Positions 51,589 through 58,380 of a DNA stretch of 64,000 bases are shown here, one piece after another. The position numbers and the translations under genes are program-made. Positions within the stretch are counted from its first letter, which is position 1; each line of letters starts with the position of its first letter. Under the pieces are notes generated by a model that saw nothing but the letters and a program-made list of their open reading frames with translations, ran no database searches and was not told where the DNA came from. Source of the DNA: Pedosphaera parvula Ellin514 (GTDB lineage: Bacteria; Verrucomicrobiota; Verrucomicrobiia; Limisphaerales; Pedosphaeraceae); the NCBI RefSeq assembly GCF_000172555.1, contig NZ_ABOX02000002.1, positions 186,001-250,000 on the forward strand. Reading direction: 5' to 3'.

Positions 51589-51617
51589 TTGAAAGATTTC
51601 ACCTTTTAGCAACGTAT
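51589..51617 (+). promoter_or_regulatory. Promoter-like element A (TTGAAAGAT ... ACGTAT) of the sigma factor gene
   Basis: TTGAAA (51589-51594) and ACGTAT (51612-51617) are 17 nt apart, the spacing of a -35/-10 pair, and the -35 is extended by GAT. The start codon of the sigma gene is 30 nt downstream. The same element, with the same spacing, occurs at 58942-58970 and 59225-59253. Autoregulation by the encoded sigma factor is inference. Confidence 0.6.
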
Positions 51618-51647
51618 ATATAATGGATAGAGAAGATATAAGATATA

Positions 51648-52274
51648 ATGAACGATTTGAAAGATTTCATCCCGACCCGGCAATCGCTGTTAAGCCGTCT
51701 GAAGGATTGGAATGATCAGGAAAGCTGGAAGGTGTTTTTTGATACCTATTGGAAACTCATCTACACAGCGGCCTTAAAAGCCGGCTTGAATGATGCCGAG
51801 GCCCAGGATGTGGTGCAAGAGACCGTCCTTTCAGTTCTCAAGAGCATGCCTACTTTCGAATACGATAGCAAGAAGGGGTCTTTCAAAGGATGGCTATTGC
51901 GACTGACCAACTGGCGGATTACCGACCAGATGCGCAAGCGTGAGCGCAATCCTGAGTTCAAAATATCTGAAACAGATTTTTCCACGGACATTGAAGCCTT
52001 GGAGGCTCTGGCCCCTTCGGTGCCGATGGAACTGGAATCCATATGGGAAGAAGAGTGGGAGAGAAACCTATTGGAAGCAGCAACAGAAAGGGTAAAGAAA
52101 AAAGTTGATTCCAAGCAGTACCAAATTTTTGATCTTCATGTTCTAAAGGACTGGCCGGTTATCAAAGTGTCACGCTTCTTGAAAATTAATCCGGGAAAAG
52201 TGTATTTGGCAAAACACCGGATAGGAAAACTTATCGCCAGGGAGATTGAGATTCTACAAACAAAACCGCTTTAA
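51648..52274 (+). CDS. ECF-type RNA polymerase sigma factor
   Basis: This 208-residue protein has sigma region 2 (residues about 20-95: WKVFFDTYWKLIYTAALKAG, DAEAQDVVQETVLSVLKSM, FKGWLLRLTNWRITDQMRKR) and a region 4-like C-terminal helix-turn-helix (DSKQYQIFDLHVLKDWP, LKINPGKVYLAKHRIGKL). The short two-domain layout is that of extracytoplasmic-function sigma factors. No classical anti-sigma gene follows. Instead come two tiny ORFs, a three-domain glycosyltransferase and a Ser/Thr kinase. In Planctomycetota and Verrucomicrobiota, ECF factors are often linked to such kinases. Confidence 0.9.
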   Translation: MNDLKDFIPTRQSLLSRLKDWNDQESWKVFFDTYWKLIYTAALKAGLNDAEAQDVVQETVLSVLKSMPTFEYDSKKGSFKGWLLRLTNWRITDQMRKRERNPEFKISETDFSTDIEALEALAPSVPMELESIWEEEWERNLLEAATERVKKKVDSKQYQIFDLHVLKDWPVIKVSRFLKINPGKVYLAKHRIGKLIAREIEILQTKPL

Positions 52275-52304
52275 CGGCGAAGCACGCTCAAGCAACCAAC
52301 ATCT

Positions 52305-52502
52305 ATGAAAGAACGTCATTCAAACAAACCATCATCGGGTCGCCACGGTCCTTTCGCGGTCACTGAAATTCCTCTTCTGGGCCACGACCGTATTATGGAA
52401 ACCAAGAGGAGCATCCTTAAAAAACTATCTGCCCGTATAAGGCAGGAGAGTTGCTTTGTCAAAAAAGGACATCAGTTTTTGATTGAGAAAGCAGAGCTTT
52501 AG
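52305..52502 (+). CDS. Small hypothetical protein (65 aa) behind the sigma factor
   Basis: This is a basic 65-residue ORF with no recognised domain, signal peptide or membrane segment. The middle (ETKRSILKKLSARIRQESCF) could form an amphipathic helix. There is no clear ribosome binding site at ATG 52305. It lies 30 nt after the sigma gene and 26 nt before the Ser-Pro-repeat ORF. It could be a peptide substrate, a small regulator of the sigma factor, or spurious. Confidence 0.4.
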   Translation: MKERHSNKPSSGRHGPFAVTEIPLLGHDRIMETKRSILKKLSARIRQESCFVKKGHQFLIEKAEL

Positions 52503-52528
52503 CCCCTAGAATCGGAAGGAATAAATTT

Positions 52529-52720
52529 ATGCCCACAACTACTAAGCCTAATGGCTCTATCGGAGTACGAATTGAGCCTTGTTACAGCCCCAAACCCGTA
52601 AATCGCTTGAAGCGGGTATTAATTGCCGAAGACTCTCCCAGCCCGAGTCCCAGTCCGAGTCCAAGTCCGGGCCTGCTGCCTGTGTCTCCAAGTCAATCGG
52701 CGCGTCTTTCAAAAAAATAA
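52529..52720 (+). CDS. Small Ser-Pro-repeat peptide (63 aa)
   Basis: This 63-residue ORF has a strong ribosome binding site (GGAAGGA) 8 nt before ATG 52529. The first 35 residues are basic (NRLKRVLIAED); then comes a run of six Ser-Pro pairs (SPSPSPSPSPSP) followed by GLLPVSPSQSARLSKK. The coding DNA of the run is an imperfect hexamer repeat of AGTCCG type. Ser-Pro repeats are classic O-glycosylation targets in eukaryotic glycoproteins. The next gene encodes a three-domain glycosyltransferase, so this may be its substrate. That link is inference. Confidence 0.55.
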   Translation: MPTTTKPNGSIGVRIEPCYSPKPVNRLKRVLIAEDSPSPSPSPSPSPGLLPVSPSQSARLSKK

Positions 52721-52746
52721 ACGACTGGATCAAAATTAGGTTCGTA

Positions 52747-52805
52747 CCACTAACGAGCGTTGCAATGTGTTATTAGTGGAATGCGCACGCATTCTGCGTG
52801 TGCAT
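52747..52805 (+). promoter_or_regulatory. Tandem hairpins in the leader of the glycosyltransferase gene
   Basis: CCACTAA (52747-52753) pairs with TTAGTGG (52773-52779). Directly after, ATGCGCACGCA (52781-52791) pairs with TGCGTGTGCAT (52795-52805) through a 3-nt loop, with one G-T pair. The ribosome binding region GGGGTGA and ATG 52813 follow at once. The structure could lower translation or end part of the upstream transcript. Confidence 0.6.
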
Positions 52806-52812
52806 GGGGTGA

Positions 52813-55377
52813 ATGAAAAAGTTGCTCCTCAGATGTGATTTTTCGCCGGGGGATATAGTCATGTTGACGGCGGCGGTCCGGGATTTGCATTTCTGTTATC
52901 CCGGGCAGTTTTTAACCGATGTGCGGACTTCGTGTCCGGACATTTGGGACAACAACCCGCATATCAGCCCTCTCCGGGAGGAGGATTCGGAGGTCCAATC
53001 GTTGGATTGTACCTATCCTTTAATCGATCGTTGTAATGAGACTCCCTACCATTGTTTGCATGGCTTCATTGAATTCCTTAACGAGAAACTTGGTTTATCA
53101 ATAAAGCCGACGGCTTTTAAAGGTGATATTCATCTCAATGAGCAGGAGAAAGCGTGGTACTCCCAGGTTCATGAATTAACAGGACACGATACGCCTTTTT
53201 GGATAGTGGCTGCAGGGGGGAAGTACGACGTCACCATCAAATGGTGGGAAACGAGCCGTTATCAGGAAGTTCTAGACTATTTTCGAGGAAAGATTCAGTT
53301 TGTGCAAGTTGGGAGCTCCGGACATCACCATCCCAAACTGCAAGGGGCGATTGATCTTCGCGGGCGGACCACGCTCCGAGAATTGATTCGGTTGGTCTAC
53401 CATGCTCAAGGTGTGCTTTGCCCGGTGACGGGTCTGATGCATCTGGCTGCGGCAGTGGAAACCAAAAACAGCTCAATTAATCGCCCCTGTGTCGTTGTGG
53501 CTGGTGCACGTGAGCCTGCCCACTGGGAGGCCTATCCTGAACACCAGTTTATCCACACCAACGGCATCTTGTCCTGTGGTTCGAATGGTGGGTGTTGGAA
53601 GGACCGCGTTTTGCCTTTGAGGGATGGTAATGAACGGGACAACCCGGAGCGCTTATGCACCAACGTGGTGGGGGAACTTCCCCGGTGCATGGACATGATC
53701 ACATCCGTTGAGGTTGTCCGTCGAATCGAGTTATACTTTTCCGGGGGAAAGATCGACTATCTTTCCAGCAAACAGCGAATTGCTGCCAGACGTGGAGTAA
53801 TCAAGACCCACAGGGACGCTTTTGATCAGGAGTCATTAAATCTTCACAATGCTGGAATGGCTTGCGATCGGTTTTTAAATCAGATCGTCTCATACCCTGA
53901 TCGGTTTTCAGGGCGGGGCATTGTCATCTGTGCCGGGGGGGTGAGGTATTTCACAAACGCCTGGGTCTGCATTCACATGCTAAGGCTCCGGGGCTGCAAG
54001 TTGCCAATACAAGTCTGGCATTTGGGAGAGAAAGAGATGGACCCCGAGATGGCAAATCTTCTGCTTCCTCTTGGAGTTAAATGCATTGATGCATACAAGA
54101 TGCGGGAACGATTTCCTGCTCGAATTTTGAATGGCTGGGAGCTTAAAGCGTATGCGATGCTTCACTCCCCATTTGAGGAAGTCCTTTTTTTGGATGCCGA
54201 CAATGTTCCGATAGTCAACCCGGAATTTCTGTTCGATACGCCACAATACCGGGAAACGGGTGCGATTTTTTGGCCTGACTATGACCAGGGGAAGAACGAA
54301 AAGAAACAAACGATCTGGAAAAGTTGTGGGTTGCGCCAGCCACAAGAACCGGAATTTGAAACCGGCCAGATGGTGGTCGATAAAAAACGCTGTTGGGTTG
54401 CGCTCTCGTTATGCATGTGGTTCAACGAGAATTCTGATTTTTATTATAATTATATTTATGGAGACAAGGAGACTTTCCACCTGGCCTTCAGGAAAGCAGG
54501 AAAATCCTATGCTTTGGTGCCCAAGCCGGTTTATTCGCTGCAAGGGACAATGTGTCAGCACGATTTTAAAGGGCGACGCATATTTCAGCATCGAAACTCC
54601 GATAAATGGGATTTGTTTCTCTGGAACCAATGCATAAAGGGTTTTCGATTCGAAAGGGAATGCCTGGGTTTTTTAGCCAACCTGCGGAAGGTTTGGGATG
54701 GCAGATCAGGGGCAACCAACAAAGCAATGCTGAAGGCACTGCGGCCTGCCAGGCGCAAACATAAAAATTTGAGCATGGAGGCCGTAATGATTTCGTTCGA
54801 GGAATCGAAACGGTGCCGGAGGCAGTCGCTGCAAAATCTCGATGCCACGGATTGGGCTCGCGGAGTTGTGCATGTGCAAATCGAGAAATCCCGGGACAAT
54901 CATAATTGTGAACAAAGGCTGGCTGACTGTGCCTATCTGGCCTTAAAGGAAAGTTTGCGCAGAAATGCTGATTATATTCTTCTGCTGGAAGATGCGGTGG
55001 AGTTTAATCTCCATATCAGGCATAACCTGGAGCAGTGGAGCTTTTTGAAATCTGGATTGATTGCCGTCGCTGGCTTGTGCAATCCGGGAGTTAGAGAGCT
55101 GGCGTGCGATATCCAAAACAACGCCCGCATCGTTGATTCGGATCGTCACTTTGAAAGTGCGGCCTTTCTCTTTTCAAGAGAGGCCGTGGTTCACCTCGTC
55201 ACTCACTGGAAAGAAGTAAACGGGACGTGGCACAATAAAATTGCCTATTTAGCAAGCGAGTTCAAAAAACGAATTTTGTTCCACGTTCCGTCACTGGTTC
55301 AGCGAATCGTCCGCGAACCAGCCCAGGGTAGAGTTTTGAAGCCAGCAGTGGATTTTGATTTTAATTGGAAAGCGTAG
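52813..55377 (+). CDS. Three-domain glycosyltransferase (GT9-like, GT71/GT8-like, GT25-like)
   Basis: This 854-residue protein has no signal peptide and appears to fuse three transferase domains. Residues 1-310 resemble GT9 heptosyltransferases (CDFSPGDIVMLTAAVRDL, GVLCPVTGLMHLAAAV). Residues about 350-640 resemble MNN1-like GT71 or GT8 enzymes, with the metal-binding DxD in LFLDADNVPIVNP and an ETGQMVVDK motif. Residues about 650-854 resemble GT25-type enzymes (MISFEESKRCRRQSLQNL, LLLEDAVEFN). It is preceded by the Ser-Pro peptide ORF and followed by a Ser/Thr kinase gene. A cytoplasmic enzyme building a short glycan on a peptide or lipid is possible. Domain family labels are from memory of motifs. 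Confidence 0.72.
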   Translation: MKKLLLRCDFSPGDIVMLTAAVRDLHFCYPGQFLTDVRTSCPDIWDNNPHISPLREEDSEVQSLDCTYPLIDRCNETPYHCLHGFIEFLNEKLGLSIKPTAFKGDIHLNEQEKAWYSQVHELTGHDTPFWIVAAGGKYDVTIKWWETSRYQEVLDYFRGKIQFVQVGSSGHHHPKLQGAIDLRGRTTLRELIRLVYHAQGVLCPVTGLMHLAAAVETKNSSINRPCVVVAGAREPAHWEAYPEHQFIHTNGILSCGSNGGCWKDRVLPLRDGNERDNPERLCTNVVGELPRCMDMITSVEVVRRIELYFSGGKIDYLSSKQRIAARRGVIKTHRDAFDQESLNLHNAGMACDRFLNQIVSYPDRFSGRGIVICAGGVRYFTNAWVCIHMLRLRGCKLPIQVWHLGEKEMDPEMANLLLPLGVKCIDAYKMRERFPARILNGWELKAYAMLHSPFEEVLFLDADNVPIVNPEFLFDTPQYRETGAIFWPDYDQGKNEKKQTIWKSCGLRQPQEPEFETGQMVVDKKRCWVALSLCMWFNENSDFYYNYIYGDKETFHLAFRKAGKSYALVPKPVYSLQGTMCQHDFKGRRIFQHRNSDKWDLFLWNQCIKGFRFERECLGFLANLRKVWDGRSGATNKAMLKALRPARRKHKNLSMEAVMISFEESKRCRRQSLQNLDATDWARGVVHVQIEKSRDNHNCEQRLADCAYLALKESLRRNADYILLLEDAVEFNLHIRHNLEQWSFLKSGLIAVAGLCNPGVRELACDIQNNARIVDSDRHFESAAFLFSREAVVHLVTHWKEVNGTWHNKIAYLASEFKKRILFHVPSLVQRIVREPAQGRVLKPAVDFDFNWKA

Positions 55378-55485
55378 GTGGTTTTCTCACCAGATAATCT
55401 GTCGGCAGCCGGGGCCTGGAAAATAGTGTTGCAGTTGGGTTCAAGCACGATTTAACTCTGTTCAGTCCACCGCTGCGAAAAGGGA

Positions 55486-58380
55486 ATGGATTCAAAAGCA
55501 CATTTCATAGGTCAGCAGCTTGCAGGCAAACTCGAGGATAATAATCCGTCGGGAGAGGACTGTCAGCAGCCTGTCACCGTTCCTGACCATACATTGCTCA
55601 AGTGTATTGGTCGCGGAAGTTATGGAACGGTGTGGCTTGCGCGCAACATGATGGGCAACTTTCGCGCGGTAAAGGTGGTTTTCCGGAGTTCCTTTCAGAA
55701 TCAACGACCCTTTGAGAGAGAATTGGCAGGGATTAGAAAATTTGAACCCATTTCGCGTTCGTACGAAGGCTTCATCGATGTGTTACACGTGGGTATCAAT
55801 GAGAGTGAAGGGTACTTTTATTATGTCATGGAACCCGGAGATGACATGGTTTCAGGGCAGAATATTGACCCTGAAAAGTATGTCCCTAAAACTCTCAGCA
55901 AAGAAATTTCGCTGCGTGGAAAATTACCAGTGGAGGTTTGTCTGCAGAGCGGATTGGCGTTAAGCCAGGCGTTATGGGAACTTCACAAGCATGGGCTTGT
56001 CCATCGCGACGTAAAGCCGGCGAATATCATTTTCGTAAACGGTGTGGCCAAACTGGCGGATATCGGACTGGTGGCGGAGGCCAAAGAAGCCCAGTCCTAT
56101 GTTGGTACAGAAGGCTTCATTCCACCGGAAGGTCCTGGTACACCTCAGGCGGATATTTTCAGCCTTGGCAAGGTGCTTTATGAGGCGGCTACGGGAAAGG
56201 ATAGACAGGATTTTCCAGAGCTTCCCACCAGGGTCGATGAATTGCCTGATGCGCGTGGTTTTCTTGAGCTCAACGAAGTCATTCTTCACGCATGCAAACG
56301 TGACAGATCTGAGCGGTACCAATCTGCGTGGGATATGCATGCGGACCTGGTGGTGCTGGCGAACGGAAAATCGGTTAAACGACTGAAGCAGTTGGAAAGG
56401 CGAGTCACCGTCTTAAAACGGGTTGCGGGAATTTCAAGCCTGGTTCTGCTGCTGGTATTTGCTGTAAGTTACCAGGCGTATCGTGAATGGGCCAGGGTGG
56501 TCGAGAATCGTGAACGTCAGGTGGGCGCCAATGTGGCCTATGGCAATCGGGCAATGGATTCCGGTGATTTGCTCCATGCTTTGCCATATTTTGCCGAAGC
56601 TCTGCGGTTGGACGAGCACGGGAAGCAACAAAATATTCGCGATCGTCTGAGATTTGGGGTTGTGCTGGCGCATTGTCCGAAGCTCACGCAGCTATGGTCT
56701 GAAGGCCAGGAGATCGATGATGCCGAATTCAGTTCGGACGGAAAAAGGATCGTGGTTGCGGAGTATAATGGAGCAGCGAGGATTTACGAGCTTCCGACTG
56801 GAGGAACTTCTGGCAAGACGTGTGGAGCAGGAACCCGGCTGAGGAGTGCAGCCTTCAGTCCTGATGGAAAGTATATTGTTACGAGTGGGGAGGATGGTTA
56901 TGCAAGGATCTGGGATGCCAATAATTTGGAGAGAATCGACGACTTGCCCCATCCAGGTCCAGTCTATCATTCAAGTTTTAATTTCGATGGCTCAAGGCTG
57001 ATTACTGCGTGCGGTGATGGTAACGCCCGTGTATGGAATTTCAAAACCAGGAAGCAAGACCTCATCATCAAACATGGCACAAATGACGTATGTTTTGCCG
57101 CTTTTAGTGGTGACGGACGGTTGATTGTAACTACTGGCTATGACTATACCGCCCGAATTTGGGATGCGGTGGATGGACATGCCAAAGCCCCGCCGTTAAG
57201 ACATAAAAGCTGGGTCATCTACGCTGCCTTCAGCCCCGATAACGAAAAGTTGGCAACTGCATCCTGGGACCGTTCAGCACGTGTCTGGGAAACTGGAACG
57301 GGCAGGCAAATTTTGCCAGACATGAACCATCTTGACGGAGTAGGCAGTGTGGAGTTCAGCCCCGATGGCAGAATGATCCTGACTGCCAGTTTTGATGGTA
57401 CGGCGCGGCTCTGGCATGCCGATACCCTCGCACCGCTGGGTTCGAATCCACTGCTACGCCACCGGCAACGCGTTTCGCGTGCTTCTTTTGGCCATGATGG
57501 ACACACGATTTTAACGGCTTCCATCGATGGTACAGTGAGAATTTGGGATCTGGCTTCAGGCGCGCTGCCCATTCCGGTTCCTTCTGTTTCGTTGAGCGAT
57601 GATGGCAGTCGATACCTGGCGGTCACCAATGGCATTTTTCAAGTTCGGGAGACCATTTCTGACCGCCCTATTTCGACCCTGGTAAACACTGGCCATGCCG
57701 TGGACAAGGCTGAACTTGGTTGCCATGGATATTTTGTCCTAGGCATGTCGGAAATCCGGAGCAACTCCGCTTCAACCAATCACCTGCTTCAATTTTGGGA
57801 CGCAAACACTGGACAAGTCCTCGCTTCCGGGCTTGAACTCACGAATTCCTTTTCAGGAATGGCGTTTAGTGGCGAGGGGAAGCGCCTGGCCATTTTTAGA
57901 GAAGGTTCAGCGCAAATCTGGGATATTGTCACACGAAAGCCAATCTCTCCCTGGTTGCAGCATGACGAAAGAATCAGTTCCGCCATTTTTAATTCGGATG
58001 CAACTCTCCTGGCGACTGTCAGTGGAAGCAAGCTCCGGTTGTGGAATGTTCAAAGTGGCAAACTACTGTTTGAACCGTTGAAGCATCTGACCCGGGTAAA
58101 ATTTGCGGAGTTCAGTCCCGATGGATCCCTGATTATAACAGGTTGTCAGGACGATCAGTTCACGAAGTGTTATGCACAGGTGTGGAGCGTTGCCACCGGA
58201 CTGCCCGTCGGACCCCAGCTTGGGCACAACGATGGTGTGATTTCCGCATCTTTCAGTCCTGACGGACGACGGGTGGTGACCGGCAGCGAGGACTTCACAG
58301 CCATGGAATGGGACTTTGCAACCGGTCAAAAACTCATACCCGATCTTCGTCACGAAATCAGTCAAAAGCGCGGATTTTAG
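55486..58380 (+). CDS. Membrane Ser/Thr protein kinase with C-terminal WD40 propeller, 3' end disrupted
   Basis: This 964-residue protein has a Hanks-type kinase domain (about 35-290): glycine loop GRGSYGTV, Lys63, catalytic loop HRDVKPAN (Asp175) and ADIGL (Asp192, in place of DFG). A membrane span lies near 312-332, then a short tetratricopeptide-like stretch and about ten WD40 repeats (DARIWD, ARVWETGTGR, FSPDGR), probably outside the membrane. The frame stops at 58380 inside what should be another repeat. Typical family tail sequence continues in shifting frames to 58842. The kinase half is intact. Pairing with the ECF sigma factor upstream is typical of the phylum. Confidence 0.85.
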   Translation: MDSKAHFIGQQLAGKLEDNNPSGEDCQQPVTVPDHTLLKCIGRGSYGTVWLARNMMGNFRAVKVVFRSSFQNQRPFERELAGIRKFEPISRSYEGFIDVLHVGINESEGYFYYVMEPGDDMVSGQNIDPEKYVPKTLSKEISLRGKLPVEVCLQSGLALSQALWELHKHGLVHRDVKPANIIFVNGVAKLADIGLVAEAKEAQSYVGTEGFIPPEGPGTPQADIFSLGKVLYEAATGKDRQDFPELPTRVDELPDARGFLELNEVILHACKRDRSERYQSAWDMHADLVVLANGKSVKRLKQLERRVTVLKRVAGISSLVLLLVFAVSYQAYREWARVVENRERQVGANVAYGNRAMDSGDLLHALPYFAEALRLDEHGKQQNIRDRLRFGVVLAHCPKLTQLWSEGQEIDDAEFSSDGKRIVVAEYNGAARIYELPTGGTSGKTCGAGTRLRSAAFSPDGKYIVTSGEDGYARIWDANNLERIDDLPHPGPVYHSSFNFDGSRLITACGDGNARVWNFKTRKQDLIIKHGTNDVCFAAFSGDGRLIVTTGYDYTARIWDAVDGHAKAPPLRHKSWVIYAAFSPDNEKLATASWDRSARVWETGTGRQILPDMNHLDGVGSVEFSPDGRMILTASFDGTARLWHADTLAPLGSNPLLRHRQRVSRASFGHDGHTILTASIDGTVRIWDLASGALPIPVPSVSLSDDGSRYLAVTNGIFQVRETISDRPISTLVNTGHAVDKAELGCHGYFVLGMSEIRSNSASTNHLLQFWDANTGQVLASGLELTNSFSGMAFSGEGKRLAIFREGSAQIWDIVTRKPISPWLQHDERISSAIFNSDATLLATVSGSKLRLWNVQSGKLLFEPLKHLTRVKFAEFSPDGSLIITGCQDDQFTKCYAQVWSVATGLPVGPQLGHNDGVISASFSPDGRRVVTGSEDFTAMEWDFATGQKLIPDLRHEISQKRGF

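Follow-up and report, generated by a model that had tools for sequence, protein, structure and literature searches.

A putative O-glycosylation cassette in Pedosphaera parvula

The analysis of a 64,000-nucleotide stretch (the window) of the 7.41-Mb genome of Pedosphaera parvula Ellin514 (Verrucomicrobiota; contig NZ_ABOX02000002.1, positions 186,001 to 250,000) points to a small O-glycosylation cassette, in which a short Ser-Pro peptide would be decorated by the three-domain glycosyltransferase encoded beside it. We give this reading, in which we infer sugar transfer, glycan structure, and biological role, a probability of roughly 0.6. It is favored because peptide and transferase co-segregate and the codons of the peptide motif change silently, because all three transferase domains have transferase folds and stand-alone genes for the GT9 domain lie near poly-Ser proteins, and because the GT9 domain shares its fold, four cysteines, and Thr/Lys donor-site residues with the protein O-heptosyltransferase TibC, in a genome that also holds a heptokinase-like gene.

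The stretch under study begins at position 51589, 59 nt ahead of the start codon of an extracytoplasmic function (ECF) sigma factor, and comprises five open reading frames (ORFs), all on the + strand: the sigma factor, ORF1, the Ser-Pro ORF, the transferase, and a WD40 kinase (Table 1). ORF translations and profile matches place these five genes as an initial annotation had described them. That annotation had also proposed a peptide glycosylated by one multifunctional enzyme under its own sigma factor; the core idea is strengthened here, with the peptide-transferase pairing and the transferase folds borne out, while the GT25 label of the third domain is not clear and a sigma factor private to the peptide did not hold.

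Conservation of the Ser-Pro peptide and its pairing with the transferase

Whole or partial transferase relatives occur in 52 of the 196 genomes of the order examined, and most loci that have a full-length or GT9-GT71 transferase and sufficient upstream DNA show the gene order of the window (sigma–ORF1–peptide–transferase–kinase); these locus counts are not independent, since many loci are contigs of metagenome-assembled genomes (MAGs) of related organisms. Across the cassette loci, identity to the window proteins is 37-69% for the sigma factors and 42-73% for the kinase domains. When the neighborhoods of related loci were compared, no gene beyond those of the cassette was conserved around it, polysaccharide genes included, and no accessory Sec genes were found at the cassette.

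The 63-codon ORF carries exactly six consecutive Ser-Pro pairs and has the sequence GGAAGGAA seven bases upstream of its ATG, confirming the repeat and the strong ribosome binding site that had been noted for it. In 13 aligned peptides, S-P-x-P is common to all, mostly as PGFSPKP, and is followed by a Ser-Pro-rich tail; peptide length within the cassette family is 44-90 residues, and no conserved Cys, including a Cys pair, is present in the family alignment. A six-frame search of 613 kb of related loci yielded 21 small ORFs with [FY]SP[KRQS]P, 18 of which lie inside a cassette beside the transferase gene. Moreover, the peptide family profile gave 15 matches at E<=1e-5 across the 196 genomes, every one of them (15/15) at a transferase locus. 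Relatives lacking the small ORF, the refuting case named in the initial annotation, did not occur for the full-length cassette. Invariant Ser and Pro codons show free variation in their third base, the pattern of a translated sequence under selection. Judged by these comparisons, at least 15 genomes keep the Ser-Pro ORF as a conserved gene. A chance repeat was also considered as its origin and is ruled out by the conservation of the ORF with silent codon changes.

Variation around the peptide was also observed. Variant peptides with GYSPSP or GYSPRP are found at three loci (L059:7712-7978; L064, - strand, from 9575; L057, - strand, from 10692), where the motif is followed by an I-x-I-x-L/I-x-P-G-Q-like segment, with Asp-Ser-Pro repeats in two; the enzymes paired with them are GT9-GT34 or GT9-GT71. 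At L049, L050, and L061, another conserved ORF of 114-172 residues (LPPGDxGPxCxYSPxCSP-like) replaces the peptide upstream of the transferase, and the sigma factor is absent. Truncated or broken transferase copies, with the third domain lost or out of frame or a GT9 fragment holding several stops, occur at L039, L042, and G020:C38; in some lineages, then, the gene decays.

Domain architecture of the transferase

The GT9 domain matches PF01075 with 35.3 bits against a gathering score of 22. It was poorly modelled in the AlphaFold run on the whole protein (16 sequences) and well modelled from a 57-sequence alignment of the domain alone, with a predicted local distance difference test (pLDDT) score of 95; this model matches the GT9 enzyme 3tov (Z 24.2), WaaF (1psw, Z 21.3), and TibC (4rap, Z 20.2, root-mean-square deviation (rmsd) 2.7 over 257 residues). 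At Z 17 the model also matches plant NDH-PSI supercomplex subunits (7f9o, 7wff, 9grx), where the fold is put to an unusual second use. The middle domain matches PF11051 with 142 bits against a gathering score of 22 and resembles yeast MNT2 (7xjv, Z 22.9), and its DADN at residues 461-464 is invariant in 16 relatives; in PDB sequence-profile searches, MNT2 was the only credible relative of the transferase, and the GT9 part alone had none. The GT9-like and GT71/MNN1-type (DAD) assignments of the initial annotation are therefore supported by profile and fold alike.

The C-terminal parts had likewise been called transferases, and the predicted structures of the domains match transferase folds. For the third of them the transferase-like fold stands and the GT25 label is not clear: no GT25 Pfam match appeared at E up to 1, and COLGALT1 gave only a poor two-domain alignment (rmsd 16). 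Its nearest folds are POMGnT1 (Z 15.7 over 177 residues) and GnT-I (Z 15.6), with no GT13 Pfam match. Most relatives carry an EDD motif in this domain, where the window has EDA (LLLEDA instead of LLLEDD). Relatives keep the GT9 part and vary the remainder, which is GT71 with the third domain, GT71 by itself, GT71 with GT34, GT34 by itself, or missing altogether. The constant GT9 part would be the natural candidate for acceptor recognition.

TibC glycosylates autotransporters and is a known protein O-heptosyltransferase; it binds iron through Cys 339, 342, 358, and 370, and Thr226 and Lys230 are among its donor-site residues (PMC4358343). In the window's GT9 domain, Cys255, 261, 282, and 292 together with T141/K143 are conserved in at least 90% of 57 relatives. 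In an alignment with two bona fide members of the autotransporter heptosyltransferase family (BAHT), from Caballeronia and Paraburkholderia genomes, the four Cys fall in the same order as the Cys of the BAHT iron finger, with differing spacing and a weak profile score (P 0.012). BAHT enzymes form dodecamers, use ADP-heptose as donor, and have an N-terminal domain ahead of the catalytic core; the window's protein lacks this domain, its catalytic fold starting at residue 1 and corresponding to TibC from residue 96 onward. Because this domain is absent and the family model TIGR04414 does not match, the GT9 domain is a relative of BAHT, not a member. A heptokinase-like gene for ADP-heptose is found in the genome at 333 bits, slightly below the 345 cut-off.

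Stand-alone GT9 genes and poly-Ser proteins

The GT9 domain also occurs on its own, at about 58-69% identity over about 320 residues, in records labelled Gemmatimonadota, Acidobacteriota, Planctomycetota, Bacteroidota, Armatimonadetes, Burkholderiales, Pseudomonas, and others, labels that may be wrong because many of these records are MAGs; a search of a plasmid collection gave no GT9 match. No FSPxP peptides were found beside the stand-alone genes in other phyla; poly-Ser proteins stand there instead. Poly-Ser tracts, defined as 18 or more Ser in 30 residues, were present in 25 of 39 stand-alone GT9 loci, amounting to 44 tracts in 435 kb versus a single tract in the 727 kb spanned by cassette and control loci, and in 12 of 42 loci a tract lies within 300 nt of the GT9 gene; given the relatedness between Gemmatimonadota and Acidobacteriota loci, these counts overstate independent events. 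Few long poly-Ser runs occur across whole genomes, as judged by a pattern that also picks up Asp-rich or Leu-rich sequence on other frames. Approached from the other side, regions fetched for holding a long poly-Ser run had a GT9 gene adjoining or within about 3 kb in six of seven cases, and the GT9 gene was absent from the 7.8 kb contig of the Ser/Thr run L174.

Several of the poly-Ser proteins that adjoin stand-alone GT9 genes in a number of phyla (L118, L119, L135, L143, L148, L150, L151) are Tat-lipoprotein-like (RRxFL...AC...SSSS). At GT9 loci, Ser-rich insertions were seen in a protein that by eye resembles a contractile tail sheath, without a Pfam match (L133:7948-8919), and in a DUF6519 protein (L145:352-4050); these are possibly glycosylated parts of contractile injection systems. 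In Caballeronia and Nitrospira records, long proteins opening with PPYPPFPPYPP repeats (L128:9649-12969, L125:10989-14174) are encoded in the neighborhood of GT9 and Ser-rich genes. Protein kinases, one with an FHA domain, directly follow stand-alone GT9 genes at L109:4829-5653 and L151:7096-8166, so that the combination of GT9, a kinase, and a Ser-rich chain is met repeatedly beyond Verrucomicrobiota as well.

The link of this GT9 family to poly-Ser and Ser-Pro chains is a more general and more surprising point than the cassette itself and had been missed in the initial annotation. A literature search turned up neither a poly-Ser/GT9 nor a Ser-Pro/GT9-GT71 system, which is weak evidence as it covered open-licence papers only, and the GT9 family is apparently undescribed so far. 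We regard it as an even bet that there is a widespread, undescribed class of bacterial O-glycosylation, in which TibC-like GT9 enzymes would act on pure poly-Ser or Ser-Pro chains across phyla and which in Verrucomicrobiota would take the form of a combinatorial multi-domain enzyme (GT9 with GT71, a GT13-like domain, or GT34) with a miniature, mucin-like peptide dedicated to it, under the control of a sigma/kinase switch.

The sigma factor and kinase module

The sigma factor family occurs in 107 of the 196 genomes, in up to 11 copies and mostly without a transferase nearby, and ECF sigma domains with an adjacent Ser/Thr kinase gene were found across genomes. Among 20 sigma loci without a transferase, none carries an FSPxP peptide, 11 have a kinase in view, and in several a short ORF between sigma factor and kinase carries the basic segment known from ORF1 (KRSILKKLSARI in the window). 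Since several of these loci keep ORF1-like ORFs and none has the peptide, sigma factor, ORF1, and kinase constitute a general regulatory module, and peptide and transferase are its cargo here. This corrects the earlier view that the peptide has a sigma factor of its own. The kinase (964 residues) combines a single hydrophobic segment with WD40 repeats.

Members of ECF43 have lost the acidic DxxD residues of region 2.2 (PMC13147305), whereas most cassette sigma factors retain the acidic residues of this region (DAEAQDVVQET or close variants). An ECF43-type phospho-switch was therefore considered and is not indicated.

Table 1. Features of the cassette, with positions counted in the window
Feature	Position	Strand	Basis
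ECF-type sigma factor, 208 aa; family spread through the order	51648..52274	+	Sigma70_r2 E 1.8e-10; sigma70-ECF E 7e-17
ORF1, 65 aa, weakly conserved; basic amphipathic segment KRSILKKLSARI; goes with sigma/kinase module	52305..52502	+	locus comparison
Ribosome binding site GGAAGGAA of peptide gene	52514..52521	+	sequence
Ser-Pro peptide, 63 aa, putative glycan acceptor	52529..52720	+	motif, profile, and conservation
Conserved core PCYSPKP (family consensus PGFSPKP)	52577..52597	+	family alignment, codon comparison
(Ser-Pro)x6 tail, residues 36-47	52634..52669	+	sequence
Three-domain glycosyltransferase, 854 aa	52813..55377	+	PF01075 E 9.9e-9, PF11051 E 2.8e-41, both above cut-offs
GT9-fold domain, ~residues 1-332; constant module, stand-alone in many phyla	52813..53808	+	PF01075, fold
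Putative metal finger as in TibC, conserved Cys 255, 261, 282, 292	53575..53688	+	alignment
GT71 domain, ~residues 364-633, DADN motif, MNT2-like	53902..54711	+	PF11051, fold
Third transferase-like domain, ~residues 654-854, GT-A type, nearest POMGnT1 and GnT-I (GT13)	54772..55374	+	predicted fold
Ser/Thr kinase, 964 aa: N-terminal kinase domain, one transmembrane segment near 56425-56470, C-terminal WD40 propeller	55486..58380	+	PF00069 E 5.5e-21

Proposed mechanism and alternative explanations

We infer transfer on this peptide, the target Ser, the sugars, the order of the steps, and the regulation by sigma factor and kinase along the following lines. The ECF sigma factor and the linked WD40 Ser/Thr kinase would control the two cargo genes, the Ser-Pro peptide and the three-domain glycosyltransferase. 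The cytosolic GT9 domain would recognize the peptide and add a first sugar on Ser at the GFSPKP core, in the Ser-Pro tail, or at both; the GT71 domain would extend this sugar in the manner of a mannosyltransferase, before a further extension by the GT13-like domain.

Several observations weigh against this scheme. TIGR04414 did not match the window transferase at E up to 1 or the 57 relatives at E up to 0.01, and TibC is not the top structural match of the GT9 domain, WaaF and a GT9 enzyme of unknown role scoring higher. The third domain of the window, with LEDA for LEDD, may be inactive. Neither a conserved exporter near the cassette nor an evident signal sequence in the peptide accounts for a destination of the product. 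The transferase occurs without a recognizable FSPxP peptide at L044, L047-L050, L052, and L054-L056, and the relatedness of the MAG loci noted above applies here as well.

In one alternative, the transferase would make a glycan for the envelope or for storage, like GT9 enzymes of the WaaC/WaaF type, with the peptide merely a translational partner, activator, or chaperone. Top fold matches to lipopolysaccharide (LPS) heptosyltransferases and a GT9 enzyme, along with weak NCBIfam matches to LPS heptosyltransferases, agree with this; but the stand-alone GT9 genes lie near poly-Ser proteins rather than LPS genes, the cassette has no conserved polysaccharide genes around it, and retention of the Ser-Pro tail would be unexpected in a mere partner, so that we consider the explanation rather unlikely. 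Ser-Pro is also a classic kinase motif, and the WD40 kinase could instead have the peptide as its substrate or ligand, with Ser-Pro sites phosphorylated and the peptide regulating the sigma/kinase circuit while the transferase acts elsewhere. Kinase and peptide do share one cassette, at L060 the gene order even runs sigma factor, peptide, kinase, GT9, and kinases adjoin stand-alone GT9 genes too (L109, L151). A role of the peptide as a mere part of the kinase circuit is nonetheless weakened because the peptide is absent from the 20 transferase-free sigma loci, while every strong peptide match falls at a transferase locus, and we hold it to be unlikely. The peptide might also be a secreted antimicrobial of the glycocin type, produced from a short precursor. 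A small ORF adjoining a dedicated glycosyltransferase, the arrangement seen with glycocins, would fit this; with no exporter, protease, or immunity gene conserved near the cassette, no conserved Cys pair in the peptide family, and a transferase of another family, it appears very improbable.

If the O-glycosylation reading is true, it would provide a function for the poly-Ser tracts and Ser-Pro mini-proteins of soil and uncultured bacteria and define a family of protein O-glycosyltransferases whose present place in databases is near the LPS heptosyltransferases. Furthermore, the system would be a simple two-gene pair of one acceptor and one enzyme perhaps adding up to three sugars, directly testable in E. 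coli, and such a pair might serve for building glycans on short peptides.

Comparison with known systems

The GT71 middle domain, with its likeness to yeast MNT2 (Z 22.9), recalls fungal O-mannosylation with MNN1/MNT2-type extension; in contrast, the enzyme here is a soluble bacterial fusion, and the first sugar would come from the GT9-type domain instead of a membrane PMT enzyme. The first enzymes of the Gram-positive serine-rich repeat systems are GtfA/GtfB, of a different family from the GT9-type domain. Those systems resemble the cassette in the cytosolic, sequential glycosylation of long low-complexity Ser-rich chains by clustered transferases, yet involve large adhesins and accessory Sec export where the cassette has a peptide of 44-90 residues and one fused enzyme (PMC6973325). 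With glycocins, the cassette shares a short peptide ORF with its own glycosyltransferase, but it has no Cys-rich core, no exporter, and another transferase family (PMC6405829). The regulatory part is comparable to systems of an ECF sigma factor and a Hanks-type kinase, ECF43 among others, in having sigma and Ser/Thr kinase genes in one cluster (PMC13147305), and differs from ECF43 in the region 2.2 residues described above. The GT9 domain itself parallels the BAHT enzymes TibC and Aah in the GT9-like GT-B fold (Z 20.2), four Cys in the same order, Thr/Lys donor-site residues, and acceptor Ser in a simple repetitive protein, the acceptor here being putative (PMC4358343). Whereas TibC and Aah act on an autotransporter, the putative acceptor here is a poly-Ser or Ser-Pro chain, and the GT9 domain, lacking the N-terminal domain and a TIGR04414 match, is fused to two further transferase domains (PMC4358343).

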